From assembly GCA_021810245.1 (NCBI GenBank), contig JAJZJF010000010.1:1-35623 (forward strand): a stretch of 35,623 nt of DNA, read 5' to 3'. The DNA is from a bacterium (GTDB taxonomy: Bacteria > Elusimicrobiota > Elusimicrobia > UBA1565 > UBA9628). The notes beneath the pieces are model-generated. The model was not told the origin of the DNA and did no database searches. It was given only the letters and a program-made list of their open reading frames with translations. Below, piece after piece: positions 9,062-23,378 of this stretch; the first letter of the stretch is position 1; each line of letters opens with the position of its first letter. A program made the position numbers and the translations under genes.

Positions 9062-9313
9062 TCACCCGCCGGGAGTTGTCGATTGATTTGCCATGGACTG
9101 CGGCTCACATTGGCCGCCTTGTCCTGGAACGGGGACATATCCCGAGGGGCAATTGGTCGGCGGATATCCGCATCCGGCTGATTGACCGGCCCCGGGGCCT
9201 CCGGAAGCCCCCATAACTCCTCCGCCCATCCCACCGCTTCCACAGCCAAAGACTCCCGAGAGAACCATTCCCAGCGTCGCGGTGATCGCGGCGTAAAAGA
9301 TTTTTTTGACCAT
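9062..9313 (-). CDS. Small glycine-rich lipoprotein
   Basis: The 83-residue product begins MVKKIFYAAITATLG with a lipoprotein-type signal ending in VFGC (Cys24). The mature part is rich in Gly, Pro, Gln and Cys, with no recognised domain. Expression signals are good: GGGAGG lies 5 nt before ATG 9313, and a near-consensus sigma-70 promoter lies at 9331-9359. The longer overlapping frame 9105-9533 runs through tRNA-Leu and is not real. The function is unknown; a surface or periplasmic lipoprotein is likely. Confidence 0.75.
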   Translation of the reverse strand: MVKKIFYAAITATLGMVLSGVFGCGSGGMGGGVMGASGGPGAGQSAGCGYPPTNCPSGYVPVPGQGGQCEPQSMANQSTTPGG

Positions 9314-9330
9314 AAAAGCCTCCCAACCTT

Positions 9331-9359
9331 AGTGTAAGTCCCGCAATGGCGTTTGTCAA
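9331..9359 (-). promoter_or_regulatory. Sigma-70-type promoter for the small lipoprotein
   Basis: On the minus strand TTGACA (9354-9359) and TACACT (9331-9336) are separated by exactly 17 nt. This is a full-consensus -35 and a good -10. The predicted transcript would start about 10 nt before the GGGAGG ribosome site of the lipoprotein, giving a very short leader. Confidence 0.75.
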
Positions 9360-9395
9360 TAACGGGTCAGTTTTTTTTACCGATTTTTTACGAAT

Positions 9396-9418
9396 GGGAC
9401 AGCCCCTGCCTTCGTCCC
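9396..9418. repeat. Short hairpin downstream of tRNA-Leu
   Basis: GGGAC at 9396-9400 can pair with GTCCC at 9414-9418. The unit contains GGGACAG, also the core of the lpxC inverted repeat. There is no T-run on the minus strand after it, so a rho-independent terminator for the tRNA is not supported. It may be a degenerate REP-like remnant. Confidence 0.3.
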
Positions 9419-9455
9419 CCGGACGCGCGCCGATTGGCTTCAAATCCCTAAAACT

Positions 9456-9539
9456 TGCGCGAGGAGGGATTTGAACCCTCAAGGCCTTGCGGCCACACGG
9501 TCCTGAGCCGTGCGCGTCTGCCAGTTCCGCCACCCGCGC
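9456..9539 (-). tRNA. tRNA-Leu (anticodon CAG)
   Basis: The reverse complement folds as a class II tRNA. The acceptor is GCGCGGG pairing with CTCGCGC (one G-U), and the discriminator is A. The anticodon arm is CACGG-CTCAGGA-CCGTG with anticodon CAG. A long variable arm follows (GGCCGCAAGGCC), then the T arm GAGGG-TTCAAAT-CCCTC. The 84-nt length suits tRNA-Leu. CCA is not encoded. Confidence 0.95.
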
Positions 9540-11322: not shown

Positions 11323-12207
11323 TTAAGGCTTTCTATATTTTTCCATTTTCAGCAGAGCCCAGCACAGTTCCGCTTGAACGGAGGGGTTGGTTTCGGTGTA
11401 GAGTTGCGGTTGGATGAGGGAAAAAACATCGTTGTGACCCATCTCGCCGAGATAATGAGTGGCAAAGGCGCGGGTAAACCAATCCATATCCTGGTAGTGA
11501 TGGAGAAGGGTTTCGCGTCCAAAGGTGTTTCCCAATTCCCAGGCCAAGTGCGAAGCGTAGAGTTTGACCGCGAGAGAAGAGTCGACCTGAGCGGCGGTGT
11601 AAATAATAGAGCTGATATTGGAATCGGGCTTGCCATTGGCCATGATGTAAAGCGCTTCCATGGCGGTAAAGCGCACCGTGACATTAGTGTTTTGAAGCGC
11701 GGATTGGAAAAGCGGGATAAATTGCGGGTCATGCGTATAGGCTAAAGCGTCAAGGGCAAGGGCCTGAATCTGGACGTTAGTCCCGGTCTGGATAATGGTC
11801 TGAAGGGAGTTTTGGAGCGTCATATCTTTCGTCCCCGCCAGTCCTTCAGTGAGAAGAAAACCTAGTTGGGTGTAGCGGGTCTGAAGGTTATAACCATCCA
11901 AGGTGGTCAGATTGGCCAAATTGGTCAAGGACGGGTCCAATTGTTCTTGGGGGTTGGGCCTCATATTGGGCAGTTGAAGAAGGCGCAATAAGTTTGCGTT
12001 GATCTGGGGATCCAAGATAGCGTTTGGGGGCAATTTGAGCCTTGGGGCCGTGATGATGAGGGGCTCGAGCTCAAGAATAGGGGCTGTAGTCGCGGGCGAA
12101 GAGGCTGCCGACGGCGCGGCCGAAGGCGTGGCCGCTTGCGAAGAGGCATTCTGAGCATGAATACTTTCCGCTAAAAAGAGCGCGCAAACAAAAACGATTT
12201 TTCTCAT
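11323..12207 (-). CDS. Exported HEAT-like repeat protein (paralogue of its upstream neighbour)
   Basis: The 294-residue protein has a signal peptide (MRKIVFVCALFLAESIHAQ), an Ala/Ser/Pro-rich segment (about 20-45), and helical repeats in the HEAT manner over about 110-290. Examples are VRFTAMEALYIMANG and FTRAFATHYLGEMG. The same layout, including YTQLGFLLTEGL against YTHIGIPVTEAL in the neighbour, shows the two are tandem duplicates. The ATG overlaps the previous stop as ATGA. It likely acts in the periplasm as a protein-binding scaffold; linkage to exbB-exbD-tonB suggests a role in envelope transport. No enzyme motif is seen. Confidence 0.8.
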   Translation of the reverse strand: MRKIVFVCALFLAESIHAQNASSQAATPSAAPSAASSPATTAPILELEPLIITAPRLKLPPNAILDPQINANLLRLLQLPNMRPNPQEQLDPSLTNLANLTTLDGYNLQTRYTQLGFLLTEGLAGTKDMTLQNSLQTIIQTGTNVQIQALALDALAYTHDPQFIPLFQSALQNTNVTVRFTAMEALYIMANGKPDSNISSIIYTAAQVDSSLAVKLYASHLAWELGNTFGRETLLHHYQDMDWFTRAFATHYLGEMGHNDVFSLIQPQLYTETNPSVQAELCWALLKMEKYRKP

Positions 12208-13118
12208 TGATTAGCCATCTTTTTGGGGAATAATTTAATGGCGGCGATACAGTCTTCCGCGACGACAAAATTATACTGCTGCTCTTGATTGATTCGGTTA
12301 ACGATTCGATCGTAATCGCTGGCGTCTCCGTAATCTCCCAAATACTGCGCGGCCATCGCGCGGACAACCCAGCTGGGATTGTTCAAAAAAGAACGGAGCA
12401 TCGGAACGCCGCTAGGATCTCCCAAGCGCGCTAGAAGGCCAGTCGCGTAAACATTGAGAATTGGAATTCCTTCTCTGTTGGGGTCGGTTTCGCTCTTTAA
12501 TAAAGGAATGGCATGTTGCGGGTGGCCCCAAACCGCCAGCGCTTCCATCGCGCCAAAACGTATTCCGGAATGAAAATAGAGAAGAGCTTCTTTAAATACG
12601 GGTTCATCGGCGAGATTGTGTTGATTGGCCAAAATAATCAAGGCCTCCGAGCGAACTTCGTAATTGGTGCTCCAGCGCGCCATGGTCACTAGCTCTTTTC
12701 GAATGCGCGGATTGCTGGTATTAAGAGATAAGGCTTCCGTGACGGGAATCCCGATATGAGTGTAGTGGTTTCTGAGGCGAAATCCCGTGGGGGTGCCAAT
12801 GCTGATGATATCTCCAAGCGGAGTGCCGGTGGTATTATTGAGCGTAACGGTTTCTTGATTGAGATTGTCGAAAAGGTTGATGAGTGTGCTGGTAATCAAA
12901 GGATCGGTTTTCGCGGTCTGGGTGGAGCTGACGACGGTGGCAGATCCTGCCTGAGATTGCGCGGCTTGTCTGGCGCCCGAAGTTCCGGGCGCTCCGGGCT
13001 GGGGAACACAGGAGGAAAGAGCCAACACCGCTAGAGATAAGATGGCGAGGGACAGGATCGAACTGTCGACACCTGGTTTTTCAGACCAGTGCTCTACCAC
13101 TGAGCTACCTCGCCTCAT
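12204..13118 (-). CDS. HEAT-like repeat lipoprotein (start unresolved, runs into tRNA-Phe)
   Basis: The body is a HEAT-like helical repeat protein (motifs IRFGAMEALAVWG and VVRAMAAQYLGDYG), paralogous to the gene that follows. A hydrophobic run ILSLAILSLAVLALSSC reads as a lipoprotein signal with a lipobox. The problem is the start. The open frame reaches an ATG at 13118, but its first 25 or so codons translate tRNA-Phe (13043-13114). After the tRNA the first usable starts are GTG 13028 and TTG 13025, which would leave only six or seven residues before the lipobox Cys. Coordinates give the full open frame; the true start is unknown. Possibilities are initiation inside the 3' end of the tRNA, a non-standard codon, or a shortened gene. 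The stop overlaps the next ATG by 4 nt. Confidence 0.65.
   Translation of the reverse strand: MRRGSSVVEHWSEKPGVDSSILSLAILSLAVLALSSCVPQPGAPGTSGARQAAQSQAGSATVVSSTQTAKTDPLITSTLINLFDNLNQETVTLNNTTGTPLGDIISIGTPTGFRLRNHYTHIGIPVTEALSLNTSNPRIRKELVTMARWSTNYEVRSEALIILANQHNLADEPVFKEALLYFHSGIRFGAMEALAVWGHPQHAIPLLKSETDPNREGIPILNVYATGLLARLGDPSGVPMLRSFLNNPSWVVRAMAAQYLGDYGDASDYDRIVNRINQEQQYNFVVAEDCIAAIKLFPKKMANQ
13043..13114 (-). tRNA. tRNA-Phe (anticodon GAA)
   Basis: The reverse complement folds fully. The acceptor is GGCGAGG with CCTCGCC, the discriminator is A, and the D arm is GCTCAGTGGTAGAGC. The anticodon arm is CTGGT-CTGAAAA-ACCAG (anticodon GAA), and the T arm is GACAG-TTCGATC-CTGTC. CCA is not encoded. 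It lies on the same strand as, and directly against, the HEAT lipoprotein gene, with no terminator between them. Confidence 0.96.
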
Positions 13119-13234: not shown

Positions 13235-13273
13235 TAGGTCTTTTGCCGGAACGGGCCTAGGACTTTAGACCCA
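13235..13273 (+). promoter_or_regulatory. 39-nt conserved element, copy 1 (before metallopeptidase 1)
   Basis: The ends TAGGTC and GACCCA pair except for one A-C mismatch. The 27-nt interior begins TTTTGCC and ends CCTAGGACTTTA, sharing these with the other two copies. It lies 35 nt before ATG 13309. The interior can also form CCG-GAA-CGG. It is probably a cis-acting RNA structure or operator; the type is not one I can name. Confidence 0.7.
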
Positions 13274-13308: not shown

Positions 13309-15789
13309 ATGAAAAACCAAAAAATGTTTCTGAGCTCTCTTTTGTCCTTATCATTGTCTCTTTCCTCTTTAAGCCCCGCCGTCGCCGGGATGAATGTCGA
13401 AAATCAAATTCCCCGCGGGTCGGAAAATATTTCTCAGGTGGCGGTTGCGCCTCTTGATTTTTCAGTTCAAAACCTTTCCGATTTTTCGGGATTAGAGTCC
13501 GGATTAAAAGAGGAATCTCTTCCTAATTTGGAGTCTGAGTCAGTTTTGTCTCCGTTGAAAATTTCACAGGTTCGAGTTCAAGGAATTTCTCCCGCTGACA
13601 TTCAAAAACGGGGCCAAGCGCCTTTAAAGCCAACGCGGTTTTCCGCGCTTTTGGGGCGTTTGAAAAAAGTTCTGGGGCGCGGAGTTTTTAAGACTTCGAA
13701 TCAATCAATTGAAAGGATTGATTTTGACGGTCGCTCTGGTTTTTCCAACGCGTCTCTGGGCGTTCGACAGAAACCCTGGCAAAACGAAAAAACTTTTCCT
13801 GCCCTCGATCGCCGCTTTTTGCTGGAGCCCCCTCACAATGGAATTGTCTCTCTTAAAGAGTTTCACCTTTCCGCCAATCCCGCTTCTCCCCAAGAAGAAA
13901 AGCCGCTGACTCTCAATGCCGATCCCGCTGACATGGCTTCAATCGAGAAGGCTTTGCGCCAGGAAGTGGATTCTAACCCGGAAAAATACGGGCTTTCAAA
14001 TCAATATGGAACTCCGAACCTGCAAATGGCGACAGTTCATGTCGTTAAACTTGCGGGGCAAGCCGATCAGGCCGATAGCATTATCGCGGTTTTTAGACAA
14101 TGGCAAAAAGGGGTAGACCGAGACGGCTCTCCTTATTATCTCTTGGTTGATGGCGCGGACTTACGCTTTCATATTAAGGTCTTAAACGATAAGCCGATTG
14201 TGATGGGAATCGAAGGCGGCTTCACCCCGGGAATTGACCCGGCCATTATGAAGCCGGAATACGACGATAACCAGCTGGAAGAGATTGCCCGCAAACAACT
14301 CTCTGTGGGACCGTCGAACGGCGGAAGTTCAGCGGACAATGTTATTCGTCCAAAGGCGCCGGGACATTTCAATCTGGGAAACGCGACTCCGCAAGTGGTT
14401 CTGATGGCGCGGGAAATCGTTTATTTTTCCGGTTCCTGGCGAGCGATGAATATTTATCAGGGCAATTCTCTTTCCGGAATGCAAAAAATTATTCTTGTTG
14501 ACGTTAAAACCGGAGAAGCCTTTCCGTTGGGATCGGACGGAATCCTAAACCGCTACCACGCTTCCGCAGATAATTCCGTTTCTGGAGCGGCCCTAGGGCG
14601 AGGAACCTTGTTGACCGATGACGGGCAGGATCACGGCCCGATAGGAGAAATGCCCTTGCCCAATGCCAAGATTTTTGACTCTCAGGGGCGCGTGATCGCG
14701 GTGACCGACGAAAACGGCAATTTTAAGATTGCCGCTGATGCCAATGGCGGGAAACCCATGCCGATCGTCGTGCGCTTAGATGGGATTTACGGTCCGGTCA
14801 TTGATGATGACTCCTCTGATCCGCCGATTGTCGCCAATTTAACCGTCAAACCGGGAGAAACCGTTCGCGTGACTGTCAACCCAAGCGGAGATAACGAGCA
14901 GGCCGCTGCGAGCGTCAACGCCTACGTTTATTCTTATCGCCTCTTTAATTGGTTTAAGTCTTATCTTGGGCTTTCCGATCCGCGTTTTTATGTTCCCTTG
15001 GCGGGTTCGATTCACACTAACGGGACCAGCCTCCCTGGAAATGCCGATTATGACCCCATGACCGATGGTTTTTATCTAATGAAAAGGGCGACGCTGCCTG
15101 AAAAAATTCACGGCAAGGATGGACAAGTTCGGACCGTGATGGTGACCTTTGAAAACACTTCCCAACCCTCCATCTCCCTCCATGAACTGGGTCACCGCTT
15201 TGTCCAAAGAGCTGCTCAGCTGAGTTTAACCGATGATCAGATGAACTCTCCAGCGTATCGCTTCGTTAAAAATCCGATCAGCCCCGTGATGGGGTCAGGC
15301 TCTAACGAGGCGACGGCTGACACTATTTCAATGTTTATGAGAAACAGCCCTGTCATTGGAAACGGCTTTATTTTAAATCCCCTGCCGGGGATGCCGACCA
15401 TCATCCGAACCGGCGAGAATAAGACCGCATATGATTCCAAAAATCCTGATCCCCATAATCAGGGGGAAACTCAGATGGGAACAGCTTGGATGAGCCGCAA
15501 GGATATTATGGCCGCGATGGGGGAAGCGGAAGGCGCTTTTCGCTCAGCTTTGATTTTTGTTTTGGCCCAGCTCTATGCGCAGCCTGAAGATCCCGTCAGC
15601 GCCTTGACCCATGCCCTCTTGGCTGATATGTCCAAAGATGGAAATACTCCGCATGAGGCTATCATTCGCTCTCACGCAAAAAATGATCACGGCCTTGATC
15701 TTCCGGCTTCTCCCTCTTTCCCGGCAAGCCAAAACCTTGCCTCAAAAAATTCGCCTGAGACTTCTCCGGCGGGGAAAACCGTTCGATAA
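13309..15789 (+). CDS. Secreted M36/fungalysin-like metallopeptidase, tandem paralogue 1
   Basis: I start this at ATG 13309 (826 residues), which gives a proper signal peptide (MKNQKMFLSSLLSLSLSL...AVAG). The in-frame ATG 13273 would lie inside the 39-nt element. A prosegment rich in Ser/Pro is followed by an FTP/PepSY-like propeptide region (about 200-330). A carboxypeptidase-regulatory-like beta domain comes next (around AKIFDSQGRVIAVTDENGNF), and then the zinc peptidase domain. Zinc ligands are His625 and His629 in HELGH, with Glu667 in SNEATADTISMF as the probable third, 42 residues on. A later GETQMGTAWM segment matches the conserved H-Q-G-L-A-F-M-G part of the paralogues. The third-ligand motif is closer to thermolysin (NExxSD) than in copies 2 and 3. 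Substrate is unknown; secretion is inferred from the signal. Confidence 0.82.
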   Translation: MKNQKMFLSSLLSLSLSLSSLSPAVAGMNVENQIPRGSENISQVAVAPLDFSVQNLSDFSGLESGLKEESLPNLESESVLSPLKISQVRVQGISPADIQKRGQAPLKPTRFSALLGRLKKVLGRGVFKTSNQSIERIDFDGRSGFSNASLGVRQKPWQNEKTFPALDRRFLLEPPHNGIVSLKEFHLSANPASPQEEKPLTLNADPADMASIEKALRQEVDSNPEKYGLSNQYGTPNLQMATVHVVKLAGQADQADSIIAVFRQWQKGVDRDGSPYYLLVDGADLRFHIKVLNDKPIVMGIEGGFTPGIDPAIMKPEYDDNQLEEIARKQLSVGPSNGGSSADNVIRPKAPGHFNLGNATPQVVLMAREIVYFSGSWRAMNIYQGNSLSGMQKIILVDVKTGEAFPLGSDGILNRYHASADNSVSGAALGRGTLLTDDGQDHGPIGEMPLPNAKIFDSQGRVIAVTDENGNFKIAADANGGKPMPIVVRLDGIYGPVIDDDSSDPPIVANLTVKPGETVRVTVNPSGDNEQAAASVNAYVYSYRLFNWFKSYLGLSDPRFYVPLAGSIHTNGTSLPGNADYDPMTDGFYLMKRATLPEKIHGKDGQVRTVMVTFENTSQPSISLHELGHRFVQRAAQLSLTDDQMNSPAYRFVKNPISPVMGSGSNEATADTISMFMRNSPVIGNGFILNPLPGMPTIIRTGENKTAYDSKNPDPHNQGETQMGTAWMSRKDIMAAMGEAEGAFRSALIFVLAQLYAQPEDPVSALTHALLADMSKDGNTPHEAIIRSHAKNDHGLDLPASPSFPASQNLASKNSPETSPAGKTVR

Positions 15790-15822
15790 GCCAGAGAACT
15801 CATGAAAGAAGCGCTTTTAATC

Positions 15823-15861
15823 TGGGTCCTTTGCCGGAGAGGCTCTAGGACTTTAGACCCA
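15823..15861 (+). promoter_or_regulatory. 39-nt conserved element, copy 2 (before metallopeptidase 2)
   Basis: The ends TGGGTC and GACCCA pair perfectly (6 bp) around a 27-nt interior that starts CTTTGCC and ends TCTAGGACTTTA. A competing helix, GTCCT (15827-15831 region) with AGGAC, is also possible. The copy is 62 nt before ATG 15924, and a partial second copy of its 3' half lies between them. Confidence 0.72.
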
Positions 15862-15896
15862 TACGGATTTTTAAATAAGGGAATAAAATAGAGGAG

Positions 15897-15906
15897 TAGG
15901 ACTTTA
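15897..15906 (+). promoter_or_regulatory. Half copy of the 39-nt element (TAGGACTTTA)
   Basis: The ten bases TAGGACTTTA repeat the conserved 3' core of the element 17 nt before ATG 15924. The complementary end arms are absent. It may be a decayed duplicate or a second protein-binding half site; chance cannot be excluded. Confidence 0.35.
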
Positions 15907-15923
15907 AGATGATAGAGGAAATT

Positions 15924-18416
15924 ATGAATAAAAAATTCACCAGCTCGTTAGTTTCTCTTTGCGTTTTGTTTTCATCCAGTTTCGGATCCGTTTGGGCCGG
16001 CGGTTTTTCGCCGGTTGAAGCGCGGGCCGATGTCTCTCCCGTTCATCTGTCGGATCTCGCCTTGTCCCCCGAAGGGGCCAATGCTTTATCCTTGCCGTCC
16101 GAGGGCATGGAGGAATCTCTCCAGTTTGAAGATTCCTTAGGCGCTATTCAAAATCAGATTCCCCTGGCGGAGGGAAAAAGTCTTGTGCCCGTTTCTCAGA
16201 GAGTTCTCAATTCCAAAAACGTGGGCTTAACCGCTGGCGCTTATAATAAGGAAGCGGGACAGGTTTTTGGGCCTTTAGGCGCTTCTGGCGTTGGACAATC
16301 GCTCCAGAGAAAAAACTCTGAGCCGCTTACAAAGCTTTCTACTTTTATCCGCTCAAACCTAAAAAAATTGGGGGCTCGGCTTTTCGACGGCTCCAAAGCC
16401 CAGTCGCCTCTTTCCGCTCTTCAATTTTCCGCTTTTGCGCCGTCAATTAGACCGCTTCCAAAACTGAAGCTTCCCCGCGGGGTTAAAACCGATGCCGGGC
16501 CGATTATCCCGAATTTTAAAGAACAGCCGGAATTTCAGTGGTCTTTAAATGCGGTTTCCGCGGCAGAAGACTCGGCAACCCCAGCGGCTCCTAATAGCCA
16601 GGTCTTTGACCAGGTGGTGGATATTGCTCTTTCGGCCGATCCGCAGAACGCATCCGATATTGAGCGCGCCGTCCGCGAGATGATTGATGCCCATCCTCGG
16701 TATAAGATCAAAAGCGCCGATTTGGGAACTTCTAAGATGTATTTAACCCAGGTGCCGGGGCAACTTCCGACCTGGTATGCCTCTTTCCATCAGCAGTATA
16801 CGGATGGAGTTGCCGCTCCGATTCCCGTATACGGTTCCGCGATTAATTTTACGATCCAAGTCAAAAACGGCAAGCCCGTCATTGTCGGAGTCAACGGTCG
16901 GCTTTTCCCCAATCTCAGAGTTGACGCTTCTCCGAAATTTAACGATACGGTTTTAGAGGGGAAAATCAGGAGTCGACTTAAAATCAACAATGAGGCTACG
17001 TCGAAAATAACATTTCGCGATCGGCAAATCTTCTATGTTCCCTCTCCTTCCGGAAAAGGCGGAGCGTGGCATGCGATTAGTCTCTATAAGGTAGAAGGAG
17101 TTAACGCTCTTGTCGCCGCTGATATCTCGACGGGGCAGACCTTCCTGTGGGATATGCGCTTAGGAGCGGCTTCTCCCACGACCGGCCCTCCATCCAATGT
17201 TTCAGCTTCGGCGCAATTTGACGCCCGCGTTCCCAAATCCGACAACGACATGGGGACCCCGCCGCATCTTTATCAACTGCCTTTGCCGGGAGTGACGGTC
17301 ACTCTTCCGGACGGCCGGGAAGTTCAAGCTGATGATCAGGGCCGCGTCAATGTACAACTGTCTAACGAGCAGCCTGTGGACGTCACCGCTCGCCTTGAAA
17401 GCGATCATGTAATGATCAATAACGAATCCGGATCGGCCTTGGTGGTTAAAGCTCAATTGGTCAAAGGAAAAGATGGAGCCGTGGTTATTTTTAACCCGCC
17501 AACCAGCGTCACGGATCCTAATCCGCCGGCTTCTCAGCCGACTTTTTGGGGCAAGATTGTTGAGGCCTTCAAGCACATTTTCTCTCCTTCTTACCGGGCT
17601 AAAGAAAACGCGGCGAGTCAAGCGCGCGCCGAATCGGAAAAGCAATTAGCTCAGGTCAGCGCTTATTATAGCCACTACATTTTCATTAATTGGGCGATGG
17701 CGCATGGAGTGGGGGCAAAAGACGGCCTTCTCAAACAGAAATTGACAATCAACGTTAATATTTCCGATTCGTGTAACGCCTATTACGATCCCTCAAGTAA
17801 TACTCTTAATTTTTTCCTATCCAGCGCTCAGTGCATCAATACAGGGACTCTGCCCGGCGTGAGTTTCCATGAGAGCGGGCATTGGACTCATGCCTTGGTC
17901 GCCAGCTATGCCCATCTGGGGCTTCAAGCGATGGCCTCGGTTGACCCGGGTCTTGGAGAAGGAATTGGAGATATGTTCGCGACTCATATTTTAGAGACTC
18001 CGCTGATCGGAGAACATTTTTTTAACGATCCTTCCCAGTCTCCGCTGCCCAACGTTCCTGGCGGCGCTTTGCGCGAAACCACCAATAACTATCAGTTTAA
18101 CCCCGGCGATGAAGTCCATAACCAAGGCTTGGCGTTTATGGGAACCGTCGGTTTTGGCGGGGCCTGGCATTCCCTTCTGATTGACGCTCTTGGAAAGGAT
18201 AAGGCCCTCTCAGTAATTCAAGGGCTTATTTTCCCGCATATCTACGGCTATGCCAATGCCTCTGATATTCCGGCGGCGTTGGGTGTCATTTATCTTGCCG
18301 CCAAGTCGTTGACGGATGCCGCGGTTCAGTCGGTTGCGACTAAGACCTTGCAACAGGCCGCAGCCAAGCACGGGATGACGATTCCGGAGTCTCAGTCTCA
18401 GGCTCCGTCTGCCTAA
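15924..18416 (+). CDS. Secreted M36/fungalysin-like metallopeptidase, tandem paralogue 2
   Basis: ATG 15924 is preferred (830 residues). GAGGAA lies just before it, and the product starts MNKKFTSSLVSLCVLFSSS, a good signal peptide. The in-frame ATG 15909 would add only MIEEI. Order: signal, Ser/Leu-rich prosegment, FTP/PepSY-like propeptide (about 215-360, with WYASFHQQYTDGV and PVYGSAINFTIQ), an inserted carboxypeptidase-regulatory-like domain (about 445-515), a linker, then the catalytic domain. Zinc ligands are His649 and His653 in HESGH and Glu679 in GLGEGIGDMFA, which resembles the M36 GEGW/GD motif. A later EVHNQGLAFMG is also M36-like. It probably self-processes after export. It is the best preserved of the three and may be co-transcribed with copy 3. 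Confidence 0.85.
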   Translation: MNKKFTSSLVSLCVLFSSSFGSVWAGGFSPVEARADVSPVHLSDLALSPEGANALSLPSEGMEESLQFEDSLGAIQNQIPLAEGKSLVPVSQRVLNSKNVGLTAGAYNKEAGQVFGPLGASGVGQSLQRKNSEPLTKLSTFIRSNLKKLGARLFDGSKAQSPLSALQFSAFAPSIRPLPKLKLPRGVKTDAGPIIPNFKEQPEFQWSLNAVSAAEDSATPAAPNSQVFDQVVDIALSADPQNASDIERAVREMIDAHPRYKIKSADLGTSKMYLTQVPGQLPTWYASFHQQYTDGVAAPIPVYGSAINFTIQVKNGKPVIVGVNGRLFPNLRVDASPKFNDTVLEGKIRSRLKINNEATSKITFRDRQIFYVPSPSGKGGAWHAISLYKVEGVNALVAADISTGQTFLWDMRLGAASPTTGPPSNVSASAQFDARVPKSDNDMGTPPHLYQLPLPGVTVTLPDGREVQADDQGRVNVQLSNEQPVDVTARLESDHVMINNESGSALVVKAQLVKGKDGAVVIFNPPTSVTDPNPPASQPTFWGKIVEAFKHIFSPSYRAKENAASQARAESEKQLAQVSAYYSHYIFINWAMAHGVGAKDGLLKQKLTINVNISDSCNAYYDPSSNTLNFFLSSAQCINTGTLPGVSFHESGHWTHALVASYAHLGLQAMASVDPGLGEGIGDMFATHILETPLIGEHFFNDPSQSPLPNVPGGALRETTNNYQFNPGDEVHNQGLAFMGTVGFGGAWHSLLIDALGKDKALSVIQGLIFPHIYGYANASDIPAALGVIYLAAKSLTDAAVQSVATKTLQQAAAKHGMTIPESQSQAPSA

Positions 18417-18439
18417 GTTTAAAATAAGGAAATAAGCCG

Positions 18440-20656
18440 GTGGACAAGAACGCGCGGGGGAAAACCCTCGCGCTTTCTTTTTTGCTTTTCCTAGGATCTC
18501 CCGCCTTCGGCGCTTCCGGGGTTTTTAAAGATTTTCCCGATTCCATTTCGCCCGCGCCCGCGAACGTAAGCTTATCTTTTCCGTCAGATGTCTCGTCAAA
18601 TATTTCCCTGCCCGATTTTAGCGAAGCCAAGGCTCTTGCGGAACCCGCCTTGTTTCGCGATAAAAAATTAAAGGTTCAAAATTTTTTTTCAAAGCAGAAA
18701 ACCCGCAGTATTGCCTCTCCTTTTGCCCGAAAACAAGGTTCTATCTTTAGCCGCTTCTTTGACGGCTTGAAATATCAGGGGAGTCTTCTCCCTCAAAGTT
18801 TGCCTAAACCCTTAGACTTGCCTCCGGGGCTTTCTGAGGCGATGGATTTAGAGGCCGATTCTCTGCCCAAGAGCGCGGTTCGCCGAAATTTATGGGATGG
18901 GGAAGACGCGGACGGATTTCTCAAGAACCCCATTGAACTCCATGTCAATCCCAAGGATGAATTCGCGGTCGAAAAAGTTTTGCGGGAAAAAATAGATACT
19001 CAAAAATCCCATTTGGGAATTTCAAGCCTAGATTTATCTACGGTTTATGTGACCGCGCATTCAGGCGCTCCCAACCGGGCGGACACTCTCTACGCTTATT
19101 TTCGTCAAAAAAAAGACGTGCGGACCGCGGGGGAATCTGTCATTTCCTTGCCTATTTGGGGGGCCTATGTTGCGGCTACAATTAAGGTGGTGAAAGGCCG
19201 CGCTTTCTTGGTTTCGCTTCATTCAAATCTTTATTCAGGAGTTGATTTGCCCCAAAAATCTGTTTTAAGAGACCAAGATTTAAACGAGGCGGTTCATGCG
19301 CGTTTCGCGGATTCTCCGGAGACCTTGATTCGTTTTCTGGGAAGAACGGTGATCGAGCGCCGGGGGCGTTGGAGAGCGGTCAATCTCTACCGAAAAAAGG
19401 GGCTTCCTCTGACCATCGCGGCCGATTTATTTAGCGGAGATGTTTTTATTTGGGATAACGACGGAAGTTCTAATTCTCTGGGGCTTCCGCCGGATATTGC
19501 TGATCATTTGCGCCCCATGGCCGCAGCCAAGGGCGGAAATCAGATGTCTTCTCTGCGCTTGATGTCGGCGCATAAAGCTGAAGGCCAGATTTTGGCCATG
19601 GCGGAATCAGACGACCATCGTCCGGAAGGGAAAATGGTTTTATCTCCGCAGCCTCTTCCTTATCTTCATTTGACTATTGATGGCCGGGAATATACGACGG
19701 ATGAAAATGGGCGTTTCTCATCTGAGATTCATGATTCTGAAGCGACCATTAAGGCGAGATTGGCCGGCCTTTTTACCGAAGTTGTCGATGAAAAGGGAGC
19801 TCCCATTGAGATTTCCGCACACATTCATAAAGGTTCTGATAATGTCGCACTCTTTAATCCGGAGGGAATGGATCCCTTGAGTGTCAATCAGGTCAACGCC
19901 TATGTGGCGGATTCTCGGCATCGCGCGTGGCTGCGCGGGATTTTAAATTCCGACCATCGCCTTGATTACCGGACGACAATTCGAGTCAATTCTCCGGAAT
20001 CTGGAAACGCCTGGTATAGCTCTGAAAGCGGAGATATTCATTCCGATCGCGCAAGCGAGGAATATTCCGACACCGGAAAAATAGGCATTTTGTTCCATGA
20101 AATGACTCATAAGGCCGATGATATGATTCACAATCCGCCCTCTGGGTTTTTCATGAACATGTTTAAGCGCGCGCGCGCCTATTTTTCCTATCATTACAAG
20201 CTCCCGGTGTTGGATCACCCTGCCGGAATTATGCCCAATGCGGGGCTGGGCGAGGGCTGGGGCGATATTGTGTCCATGTTTATGCTCGATACGCATTTAA
20301 TCGGAGAAGGATTTTTAAAAAAGCAGAACCCTGGCTGGATTAGAAACGGGGAGAATGATTATCAATTCAACCCTCAAGATGAAATTCACCAGCAAGGGCT
20401 GGCGTGGATGGGGTTTGCCTGGGATTTAAGAAAATCTTTAGTCGAAGGCTTTGGGAAAGACAAAGGCGCAAGGATAGCGGCGGAATTGATTATCCCGGTT
20501 CTCTTTGGGTACATGCCTGATATCCCTTCGGCGATAACCCACGTTCTTCTCAATGCGATGGACCGAGACGGAAATATCCTCTACGAAGAGCCTATCCGCG
20601 CAGCTGCCAAGGCCCACGGGATCGATTTGCCTTCTGTTCCGCGATTGCCTCTCTGA
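18440..20656 (+). CDS. Secreted M36/fungalysin-like metallopeptidase, tandem paralogue 3
   Basis: The 738-residue product starts at GTG 18440, with AAATAAGGA upstream, and has a signal peptide ending about AFGASG. It has the same order as copies 1 and 2: prosegment, FTP/PepSY-like part, a short carboxypeptidase-regulatory-like insert (around LHLTIDGREYTTDENGRF), then the peptidase domain. Zinc ligands are His553 and His557 in HEMTH, and Glu605 in GLGEGWGDIVSMF, the clearest fungalysin-type match of the three. The later DEIHQQGLAWMG is conserved. No 39-nt element precedes it. It lies 23 nt after copy 2, so it may depend on that transcript. Confidence 0.85.
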   Translation: MDKNARGKTLALSFLLFLGSPAFGASGVFKDFPDSISPAPANVSLSFPSDVSSNISLPDFSEAKALAEPALFRDKKLKVQNFFSKQKTRSIASPFARKQGSIFSRFFDGLKYQGSLLPQSLPKPLDLPPGLSEAMDLEADSLPKSAVRRNLWDGEDADGFLKNPIELHVNPKDEFAVEKVLREKIDTQKSHLGISSLDLSTVYVTAHSGAPNRADTLYAYFRQKKDVRTAGESVISLPIWGAYVAATIKVVKGRAFLVSLHSNLYSGVDLPQKSVLRDQDLNEAVHARFADSPETLIRFLGRTVIERRGRWRAVNLYRKKGLPLTIAADLFSGDVFIWDNDGSSNSLGLPPDIADHLRPMAAAKGGNQMSSLRLMSAHKAEGQILAMAESDDHRPEGKMVLSPQPLPYLHLTIDGREYTTDENGRFSSEIHDSEATIKARLAGLFTEVVDEKGAPIEISAHIHKGSDNVALFNPEGMDPLSVNQVNAYVADSRHRAWLRGILNSDHRLDYRTTIRVNSPESGNAWYSSESGDIHSDRASEEYSDTGKIGILFHEMTHKADDMIHNPPSGFFMNMFKRARAYFSYHYKLPVLDHPAGIMPNAGLGEGWGDIVSMFMLDTHLIGEGFLKKQNPGWIRNGENDYQFNPQDEIHQQGLAWMGFAWDLRKSLVEGFGKDKGARIAAELIIPVLFGYMPDIPSAITHVLLNAMDRDGNILYEEPIRAAAKAHGIDLPSVPRLPL

Positions 20657-20658
20657 TC

Positions 20659-21576
20659 GTGGATATGGACATCAGTTCTTTTTTCCTGCTTCTTTTAACG
20701 AATTGCTTGGGCGGGGCTTCTTTTGTGGCTACCGCCTATGCCTTAAAAAGTTTTTCTCCTTTTGCGGTGGTGTTTTGGCGGGTCTTGATTGCGGGGCCTT
20801 TTTTCCTTCCTTTTTGCGTCCGGGCTTTGAGAAAGACTCGCCTTAATATCGTGGATTGGGGAAGAATTTTTTTGATTGCCGCTGTCGGCTATGACGCTCC
20901 TCTTATATTCGGAGCGTGGGGGCAAAAACTTTCCAGCGCGACTCATGCCGCTCTTCTCATGGCGTTAGAGCCGATTGCGATTATTTTCTTGGCGGCTCTT
21001 TTTTTGGATGAAGAATTGTCCGCTCTAAAAATATTCGCCCTTGGAGTTAGCTTGATGGGCTCTTTTTTAATTGTCTCCCAAGGGCGCTCTTTAACCCAAC
21101 TGTTTGATTTTTCCAGCGGCTCTTATCTGGGCGACGGATTTTTGTGTCTTCAAGGAATTTTATTCGCCCTTTATACCGTTATCGGCAAACCCCTCCTTAA
21201 GAAAATAGATGCCTTGAGTTTGACCGCTCTGATTTCTTTTTTGGCTATTTTCCCGCTTTTGTTCTTTGCCGGAAGCGCGAAATTCGCTGTTGTAAAAATT
21301 CCCATTTCCGGCCCCGCTCTTTTCTTCACGCTTTATCTGTCTTTGGGCGTGTCTTTTGCCGGAGTTTTGACCTGGAATCTCGCGATGGAGCGGGTTTCTG
21401 CTTCGCTGTTGGCTTATTTTATTTTCCTCCAGCCTCTTTTGGGAGTTCTCTTTGGAGTTTTCCTTTTGCGGGAAGCCCTTAACTGGGACAGTTTATTGGG
21501 AGGAATTCTTATCTTATTGGGAGTTTACTGCGCTACTCTAAAACCTCAGGGTGAGCGTTCCCCAAGCCTAAAATGA
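20659..21576 (+). CDS. EamA/DMT-superfamily transporter
   Basis: The 305-residue inner membrane protein has about ten hydrophobic helices arranged as two EamA repeats (about 8-140 and 155-297). Motifs include ALEPIAIIFLAALFLDEELS and FLQPLLGVLFGVFLLREALNW. Members export metabolites, amino acids or drugs; the substrate cannot be told. The start may be GTG 20659 or ATG 20665 (two residues shorter); both follow the metallopeptidase stop within 10 nt. Confidence 0.85.
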   Translation: MDMDISSFFLLLLTNCLGGASFVATAYALKSFSPFAVVFWRVLIAGPFFLPFCVRALRKTRLNIVDWGRIFLIAAVGYDAPLIFGAWGQKLSSATHAALLMALEPIAIIFLAALFLDEELSALKIFALGVSLMGSFLIVSQGRSLTQLFDFSSGSYLGDGFLCLQGILFALYTVIGKPLLKKIDALSLTALISFLAIFPLLFFAGSAKFAVVKIPISGPALFFTLYLSLGVSFAGVLTWNLAMERVSASLLAYFIFLQPLLGVLFGVFLLREALNWDSLLGGILILLGVYCATLKPQGERSPSLK

Positions 21577-21602
21577 GTCTGAAAAACTTGTAAAATGAAT
21601 TT

Positions 21603-22790
21603 ATGGATTTCAATTTAACCCCGCATCATCTTGAACTTCAAAAGCGCGTTAGGGACTTCTGCGATAAACGCCTTGCTCCTCAGGCCGCGCTTCGCGATCA
21701 AAAAGAAGAATTTTCCTGGGACACCGTGCCGCTGCTTAAAGAAATGGGATTCTGGGGCATCCCATTTTCAAAAAAATACGGCGGAATGGGAGAAGATGAG
21801 TTGGGGCTTTGTATTATCCTGGAAGAATTGGGCCGTGTGGACGCCTCTATCGCGCTGACGATTGAGTCACATAATGGACTTTGTTCCAGCCAAATTTATT
21901 TGCACGGAAGCGAAGAACAGCGCCTGCGTTATATTCCGCGTCTAGCCTCCGGGCAAGACCTGGGGGCTTGGGCTTTAACCGAGCCGGGTGCGGGTTCAGA
22001 CGCGGCTTCCATCCAAACCCGAGCCGAATTTGACGGCGTTCACTGGATTCTCAACGGCTCAAAGACCTTTACCACCCAAGGTTCGGTCGCCGGTATCTAT
22101 GTGATTTTTGCCAAGACTTCTGCCGAGTTTACCGAAAACGGCAGGGAAGGCTTAACCGCTTTTGTCGTGGAAAAAGGGACGCCCGGGCTTAATATCGGAA
22201 AAATTGAAAAGAAGATGGGACTTCGATCTTCCGATACCGCGCAACTCCATCTCCATAATTTGAAACTCCCCAAAGAGGCCGTAATTGGAAAAGCGGGCCG
22301 CGCCTTTCGGGACGCGATGGTGGTTTTAGATGGGGGGCGCGTCGCCATTTCCGCTATTTCGGTTGGGATTGCGCGCGCGGCCTTGGAAGAGGGAATTGGC
22401 TGGGTTAAAGAGAGACAATCCGATTACGGAATCACTCCTGAAAATCCAGGTTTGACCTACGCTCAAAGGGTTTTGGCTCAGATTGCCTCTGAAGTGGATG
22501 CGGCCCGGCTTTTGACGTGGAGGGCCGCGTTTTTGATGGACCAAAAGCACCCGTATTCCCAAGAGGCTTCGATGGCCAAACTCATCAGTGGCGATTTGGC
22601 CGTTCGCGCTACCAGCGAGATTTTAGACTTGATTGGTCCGGAAGGCTCCTTGCTTGGCTGTCCCGTTCAGAGGTTTTTTAGAGATTCCAAACTCTATCAA
22701 ATCGGAGAAGGCTCATCCCAGATTCAACAGTTGGTGATTTCGCGACATCTGCTCAAAAATTTTGACAACCCTTCTTTGGTCAAGGCGTAA
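21603..22790 (+). CDS. Acyl-CoA dehydrogenase
   Basis: This FAD enzyme oxidises acyl-CoA to enoyl-CoA, in beta-oxidation or branched-chain amino acid breakdown. The 395 residues are normal. The N-terminal helical domain (about 1-115) contains QKRVRDFCDKRLAP, the middle beta domain has the flavin motif WALTEPGAGSDA, and the C-terminal helical domain ends with YQIGEGSSQIQQ. Glu369 there is in the place of the catalytic base of the medium- and short-chain enzymes. No ribosome site is clear before ATG 21603. No other beta-oxidation gene is in the window, so chain-length specificity and pathway are open. Confidence 0.92.
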   Translation: MDFNLTPHHLELQKRVRDFCDKRLAPQAALRDQKEEFSWDTVPLLKEMGFWGIPFSKKYGGMGEDELGLCIILEELGRVDASIALTIESHNGLCSSQIYLHGSEEQRLRYIPRLASGQDLGAWALTEPGAGSDAASIQTRAEFDGVHWILNGSKTFTTQGSVAGIYVIFAKTSAEFTENGREGLTAFVVEKGTPGLNIGKIEKKMGLRSSDTAQLHLHNLKLPKEAVIGKAGRAFRDAMVVLDGGRVAISAISVGIARAALEEGIGWVKERQSDYGITPENPGLTYAQRVLAQIASEVDAARLLTWRAAFLMDQKHPYSQEASMAKLISGDLAVRATSEILDLIGPEGSLLGCPVQRFFRDSKLYQIGEGSSQIQQLVISRHLLKNFDNPSLVKA

Positions 22791-22796
22791 TTTCCG

Positions 22797-23378
22797 ATGA
22801 CAGAGTCGGAACTAATCGAGAAAAGTAAAGCCGGCGATGTGGAGGCCTTTTCTCAGTTAATTCGCAATTATGAAAATAAAATTTTTAGCCTCGCCCATCA
22901 TGTCTGCGCTGGAATGCCATCGGACGCCGAGGATGTTTATCAGGAAACATTTTTATCGGCGTTCAAAAATATCAAGGGATTTAAAAACCGGTCAAATTTA
23001 GGGACCTGGCTTTATCGAATCGCGGCCAATCTCTGCTGGGTTCGTTTCCGCAAGAAAAAGCGAGATCCCGTCATGTCTATTTTAGATCGCAATCGGACTG
23101 ACGAAAATGGGATTCAGTGGGAGTTTAAAGACTGGTTTCCCAATCCCGAGGAAATTTCAAGAAAAAAAGAATTGCAGGAGGCGGTGGCCAAGGCCTTGTC
23201 AGAGCTTCCCTCCGATTATCGGCTGGTCTTGACCTTGCGCGATATTGAAGGCCTGTCAGCGGAAGAGACGGCGAAGATTTTAAAGCTCAGTATCCCCGCG
23301 GTCAAATCGCGGCTTCATCGCGGACGAATTTACTTAAGAGAACGTTTTGAAGAGGAATTTAAAGAAAAGGCGAAATGA
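22797..23378 (+). CDS. ECF-family RNA polymerase sigma factor
   Basis: The 193-residue protein has sigma region 2 (about 10-85; DAEDVYQETFLSAFKNI is the core-binding helix, LGTWLYRIAANLCW follows). An acidic linker leads to region 4 (about 125-185; LSELPSDYRLVLTLRDIEGLS, then the DNA-reading helix IPAVKSRLHRGRIYLR). It is RpoE/SigW-like. The next gene overlaps by 4 nt (ATGA) and encodes a zinc-finger protein, the usual anti-sigma partner. The start is 6 nt after the dehydrogenase stop. Confidence 0.92.
   Translation: MTESELIEKSKAGDVEAFSQLIRNYENKIFSLAHHVCAGMPSDAEDVYQETFLSAFKNIKGFKNRSNLGTWLYRIAANLCWVRFRKKKRDPVMSILDRNRTDENGIQWEFKDWFPNPEEISRKKELQEAVAKALSELPSDYRLVLTLRDIEGLSAEETAKILKLSIPAVKSRLHRGRIYLRERFEEEFKEKAK

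Follow-up and report, generated by a model that had tools for sequence, protein, structure and literature searches.

Three metallopeptidase genes and their surroundings

The window, by which we mean the whole 35,623-nucleotide stretch of DNA that was analysed, is contig 25 of an Elusimicrobiota metagenome-assembled genome (MAG) of 2.03 Mb in 152 contigs. Three consecutive genes on its + strand, designated W1 (13309..15789, 826 amino acids), W2 (15924..18416, 830 amino acids), and W3 (18440..20656, 738 amino acids, GTG start), each encode an M36/M4-like metallopeptidase precursor that is predicted to be exported. The W1 reading frame can also be read from an earlier ATG, at 13273. Orthologues are 73 to 98% identical to W1, 77 to 98% to W2, and 63 to 82% to W3. 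Among themselves, the three proteins share 22 to 27% identity over ~570 to 690 residues that cover the propeptide, beta domain, and catalytic part (E 1e-22 to 1e-49), and they are therefore paralogues, exactly as a preliminary description of this DNA had proposed with the same coordinates and sizes. Because the trio is complete and syntenic in three more Elusimicrobiota-like MAGs, with a fourth, short contig holding W1 and most of W2, it is not an assembly artefact.

Upstream of the trio lie genes for BamA, an OmpH/Skp-like protein, LpxD, LpxC, FabZ, LpxA, and a DUF3536 protein, followed by TonB-ExbD-ExbB and two HEAT-repeat genes on the strand opposite to W1–W3. Downstream are genes for EamA, an acyl-CoA dehydrogenase, an ECF-like sigma factor, a starch/glycogen synthase-like protein, and ScpB/ScpA. 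This order is conserved within the genus, in three further MAGs, and includes no peptide-uptake-specific gene among the neighbours of the trio. We considered deriving a function from the conserved neighbourhood and rejected this approach, since homologues in other genera have no neighbours in common with the W1–W3 locus and genomic location thus carries little functional signal.

The EamA transporter gene starts 2 nt past the W3 stop, and the acyl-CoA dehydrogenase and ECF-like sigma factor genes are close behind (20659-23378). Given this tight spacing, and since the genus keeps the same gene order, W3 may share a transcript with all three. Elsewhere in the window, a tRNA-Phe gene (13043-13114, - strand) overlaps the N-terminal part of a same-strand HEAT-repeat ORF (12204-13118), whose listed start is therefore probably too far upstream, and a tRNA-Leu gene likewise overlaps ORF 9105-9533.

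Homologues were found in 32 of 38 close relatives, mostly in single copy. An even draw of 199 genomes from the phylum gave strong matches only in the family of the window (f1) and a second family of the same order (f2), to which the survey of close relatives added family f3 and a single genome of family f4. For most of the other families sampled from the phylum no strong match was obtained, so that extracytoplasmic proteolysis becomes a trait by which this lineage can be tested; the weaker matches elsewhere in the phylum are more M4-like enzymes. In the tree, W1 groups with sequences from genera g5, g8, and g2, W2 with g5, and W3 with g7 and g12, and each of these groupings has starred support. 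Every copy thus has its closest company in orthologues of other genera, which makes the array an old one, and the expansion named in the preliminary description is rejected in the sense of a recent tandem duplication. One further genome (G008) carries adjacent W1-like and W2-like genes in the same order as in the window.

Domain order, catalytic residues, and selection

Alignments, profiles, and a structure model of W3 establish that all three precursors have the order previously described for them: a signal peptide, a prosegment (here called the leader), an FTP/PepSY-like propeptide, a beta domain, and an HExxH unit. The signal peptides of W1 (13309..13386, with a basic start and a hydrophobic core and ending in AVA) and W3 (18440..18514, with its frame kept in the same-genus loci L007-L009) were read from the sequence. 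The fast-evolving leaders were delimited by dN/dS and motif mapping. In W1, the leader spans 13387..13896 (dN/dS 0.33-0.37 versus 0.04-0.08 in the catalytic part) with an F-D-G motif at 13723-13731; in W3 it spans 18515..18919, a segment of low model confidence, with the motif at 18758-18766. The signal peptide and leader of W2 together occupy 15924..16619 (FDG at 16383-16391). The FDG motif of the three leaders is invariant in our alignment (A1), and a signal-leader segment with an F-D-(G) motif occurs on unrelated proteins as well. A paralogue of the W2-type leader is fused to ankyrin repeats in JA2.bin36 (L010, 7989-8960), and a peptidase-type leader is fused to an unknown 444-amino-acid protein in genome G017 (L098, 797-2131).

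The FTP/PepSY-like propeptides were placed at 13897..14538 in W1 by profile and profile–profile matches of the family, at 16620..17198 in W2 by alignment and a profile–profile match, and at 18920..19474 in W3. Pfam gave no match to FTP (PF07504) or PepSY (PF03413) in W1–W3 at E <= 1. Homology was nevertheless found by other routes, because the family profile aligns to the thermolysin propeptide (5a3y) and aligns profile–profile with Elusimicrobiota enzymes that bear a significant FTP domain. AlphaFold2 models of W3 and W1 were built from an alignment of 12 sequences, and the propeptide and beta domain of the W3 model are usable. Over residues 160-340 its pLDDT is mostly 74-86, with a dip at 200-220, and the propeptide is modelled as helix 174-187, strands 199-265, helix 278-289, and strands 297-338. 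Its fold matches to the PepSY proteins 5boi and 4exr are weak.

The beta domains, probably of CarboxypepD_reg/Ig-like type, follow at 14539..14883 in W1, 17199..17528 in W2, and 19562..19867 in W3. None of the three exceeds the Pfam cutoff for a CarboxypepD_reg-like domain (PF13715/PF13620), and W1 gives a CarbopepD_reg_2 match to residues 447-479 of 19.3 bits against a cutoff of 32.2. A few sibling proteins have weak Pfam matches in this region, and a 23-member profile over the domain recovers the designed Ig-fold proteins 8bl3 and 8bl6 (6e-4 to 8e-4). The W1 and W2 boundaries also rest on alignment, whereas the W3 domain corresponds to an all-strand segment of good model confidence (residues 379-472) between the propeptide and catalytic unit, the position that the preliminary description had given it. 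That description had also set this layout apart from the usual fungalysin one, and a reading of the insertion as peculiar we reject. The same domain occupies the same position in more thermolysin-like enzymes (FTP-PepSY-M4-like), found both in other Elusimicrobiota and in the genome of the window itself, and in a Sinorhizobium pSymA protein. It is thus an old, common element, and its placement is unusual only against the fungal fungalysins.

Catalytic units occupy 14884..15786 (W1), 17529..18413 (W2), and 19868..20653 (W3). In order, their motifs in W1 are the NA edge strand (15040-15051), HELGH (15181-15195), GSNEATAD (15298-15321), and DPHNQG (15448-15465); those in W2 are NAYY (17775-17786), HESGH (17868-17882), GLGEGIGD (17949-17972), and DEVHNQG (18108-18128); and those in W3 are NAWY (20006-20017), HEMTH (20096-20110), GLGEGWGD (20243-20266), and DEIHQQG (20378-20398). 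In W3 numbering, H553, E554, H557, E605, D609, H650, and N523-A524 are invariant in 13 orthologues and paralogues. The Asn-Ala pair, the HExxH motif, the downstream Glu, the Asp four residues on, and the late His are also kept in 23 order-wide sequences, whose motif reads (C)NAYYTPG..PSLNFFKSS..C.NT....V..HEYGH..DD....GLSEGWGD....R.GEN.YQY...DEVH.QGQAW. All 13 and all 23 sequences therefore carry the residues of a clan MA gluzincin, namely the HExxH zinc motif and a third-ligand Glu on the following helix. The motif plan is that of M4 and M36, with an Asn-Ala edge strand, HExxH, the Glu helix, and a late His, which we take to be the transition-state His after thermolysin and fungalysin. W1 has NEATAD where GEGxxD stands elsewhere, and in W3 the stretch from HExxH to the Glu helix is ~30 residues longer than in sequences of other genera.

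In searches with single sequences, neither Pfam nor NCBIfam gave anything over cutoff for W1–W3 (NCBIfam gave no match at all), nor did a search of PDB sequences with W2. W3 scores 10.9 bits against Pfam M36 (PF02128, cutoff 23.3 bits) and W1 and W2 have no match, whereas siblings L048 and L042 reach 21.5 and 21.8 bits, and a genome search found six siblings over the cutoff (23.5-26.4 bits) when neighbouring segments were summed. Pfam M4 (PF01447/PF02868) gave no match for W1–W3 at E <= 1. The top two matches of the 23-member family profile are the fungalysin MEP structures 7z6t (2.7e-5) and 7qp3 (4.4e-5), and the same profile also recovers the thermolysin precursor 5a3y (2.9e-4, with propeptide and catalytic segments) and aureolysin. 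Fungalysins are thus the closest solved relatives, by a small margin over thermolysin and with a match that spans the catalytic core only. The similarity of the catalytic domains to M36/M4 on which the first assignment depended is therefore borne out, and these profile matches together with the sibling M36 scores lead us to describe the family as M36-like with M4 features. The fungalysin-like label stands on catalytic residues and profile matches, and membership of W1–W3 in M36 proper, whose Pfam cutoff they miss, is at most tentative. Because the catalytic units of the AlphaFold2 models are mostly at pLDDT < 50, a thermolysin-like fold for this part is suggested by profiles and residues. A Foldseek search with the W3 model returned nothing at E <= 0.001.

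In W2, cysteines C617 and C637 (codons 17772-17774 and 17832-17834) flank the substrate-binding strand. Both are present in 17 of 23 family members and neither in the other 6, with no sequence holding a single one (Fisher p 1e-5, a value that ignores kinship), and the absences fall at three places on the tree, namely the W1 group, W3, and L043. Because these cysteines are kept or lost only together, we predict that they form a disulfide, which fits an oxidising, exported setting.

Measured against loci L007-L009 of the same genus, the catalytic units have a dN/dS of 0.03-0.10, the propeptides of 0.07-0.20, the beta domains of 0.07-0.23, and the leaders of 0.18-0.50. The catalytic unit is under strong purifying selection and is the slowest-evolving part. 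In the closest pair (L007), the three catalytic units give values of 0.04, 0.07, and 0.10, and this comparison is the safest because synonymous sites are near saturation in more distant ones.

Proposed activity and expression

We interpret W1–W3 as anciently separated, catalytically competent clan MA zinc metallopeptidases (M36/M4-like gluzincins) that would be exported through Sec as zymogens and serve extracytoplasmic protein digestion, and we place the probability of this reading at roughly two in three. As judged from sequence, the precursors would pass through Sec and lose their signal peptides, and the FTP/PepSY propeptide would fold with the catalytic unit and block it. The propeptide would then be removed, probably by self-cleavage, to leave a mature form made of the predicted beta-sandwich domain and a compact catalytic unit. 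By zinc catalysis, this enzyme would cut proteins beyond the cytoplasm, and scavenging of peptides and amino acids is the most likely purpose. The three proteins diverge most in the leader, the disulfide, and the loops at the active site, which suggests that they act on different substrates or in different places. A survey of Elusimicrobiota MAGs in sludge reported few extracellular proteins per MAG (PMC11495043). Our literature search returned no paper on the enzymes described here.

The main rival, which we consider unlikely but the most serious of those weighed, also takes the enzymes to be active, but as envelope maturation or quality-control peptidases that cut the exported proteins of the bacterium itself rather than food protein. 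The position of the locus among genes for outer-membrane biogenesis (BamA, Skp-like, LpxD/C/A, FabZ), for TonB-ExbBD, and for HEAT-repeat proteins, in an order kept in the genus, is consistent with such a role, and three long-kept copies with differing loops would fit dedicated substrates. However, homologues in other genera occur without these neighbours, and a zymogen with an FTP/PepSY propeptide is the typical design of secreted M4/M36 enzymes that degrade protein.

Digestion is likewise favoured over the idea that at least one of the three has no catalytic activity and serves in binding or regulation instead. Although their strong divergence from the Pfam models, the NEATAD of W1, and the extra residues of W3 relative to its siblings could be read in this way, every sequence has all ligands and the catalytic Glu, thermolysin also uses the NEAxxD form, and the catalytic part evolves slowest, so that we regard loss of activity as improbable. 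Secreted M4/M36-type metallopeptidases can also damage other cells, and the preliminary description had accordingly raised attack on other cells, whether in predation or antagonism. Nothing in the analysis supports this idea. We judge it the least probable alternative, and a very improbable one, because Pfam and NCBIfam searches of W1–W3 found no domain of a toxin, for adhesion, or for contact-dependent delivery and the identified neighbours include no immunity-like or injection genes.

A terminator-like hairpin (18452-18473) and its U-rich run (together 18452..18483, + strand) were recognised by scanning, folding, and conservation. They begin 36 nt past the W2 stop and fall within codons 5-15 of W3. 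The stem has 9 bp, mostly GC, and is followed by UUUCUUUUUU; folding of 84 nt gives a z of -3.5. Stem and U-run are kept without indels in four genomes (that of the window and three more), where one pair is changed on both sides (GC to AU) and two on one side. Covariation in these four sequences is suggestive only, since 79 of 500 shuffles equal it. The hairpin may mark the end of a W1–W2 transcript, or it may couple W3 transcription to W3 translation. A more elaborate version, which we offer as a doubtful possibility, is that a switch is built into the beginning of W3, where a conserved intrinsic terminator has a U-run that encodes the hydrophobic core of the signal peptide. W3 would then be transcribed only when ribosomes start there and melt the hairpin, which would set W3 output apart from that of W1–W2. 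If this were true, the three peptidases would make up a graded set for digestion outside the cytoplasm, specific to the lineage.

Comparison with known peptidases

Fungalysins of M36 (PF02128; 7z6t, 7qp3) resemble W1–W3 in the HExxH, G-x-x-E-G-x-x-D, and late H-x-x-G pattern. In contrast to them, W1–W3 have a beta domain ahead of the catalytic unit, the family siblings have a short HExxH-to-Glu spacing, and W3 has ~75 residues from the first predicted helix to HExxH, whereas the fungalysin MEP chain has ~180 residues before HExxH. Thermolysin (M4, 5a3y) shares the FTP/PepSY propeptide, the Asn-Ala edge strand before HExxH, and, with W1, the NEAxxD form, but its profile score is weaker than that of M36 and W1–W3 have no Pfam M4 match.

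The FTP-PepSY-M4-like enzymes from other Elusimicrobiota families and from the genome of the window (L074-L078 and L099) are collinear with the family from the propeptide to the C-terminus in profile–profile comparison (471 columns, 99.2%, E 2.7e-19). In three of them (L076, L078, and L099) the PepSY and catalytic parts are separated by the same beta domain, which shows the motifs T-D-x-x-G and L-x-G-x-Y-x-x-V. Unlike W1–W3, these enzymes have an extra stretch between the beta domain and catalytic unit and a significant Pfam FTP match, with M4_C over cutoff in one, and L074-L077 and L099 have a C-terminal FlgD-like segment. L099 (2073-5504 on contig 49 of the genome of the window, G000) is a fourth FTP-PepSY gluzincin there, of 1143 amino acids, and adjoins genes for a HEAT-repeat protein and a probable outer-membrane protein. 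A member of the family proper in genome G020 (L055, 5782-9018) ends in a cold-shock domain (PF00313, 69 bits), which is odd for an exported protein.

Outside the phylum, the hypothetical protein WKL33747.1 of Sinorhizobium meliloti pSymA differs in that it has no recognisably similar propeptide region and no Pfam match. It is alike in the beta domain and catalytic unit, with the motifs C-NAYY, HEYGH, SEGFGD, and H-x-x-G, and is 27.5% identical to sibling L048 (E 7e-15). On S. meliloti pSymA, an unannotated relative (L094, 2047-4404) adjoins S8 peptidase and M20/M25/M40 peptidase genes; in strain R11 the relative is annotated as two ORFs (L095). Set against these systems, the propeptide–beta–gluzincin layout is old and its beta–catalytic part is common across phyla. 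W1–W3 thus represent a branch of a well-known kind of enzyme that is specific to their lineage and has not been described before, though it is not new in principle. The analysis provides a name and a catalytic map for proteins to which library searches assign nothing, in most of the genomes sampled from an uncultured order of Elusimicrobiota.
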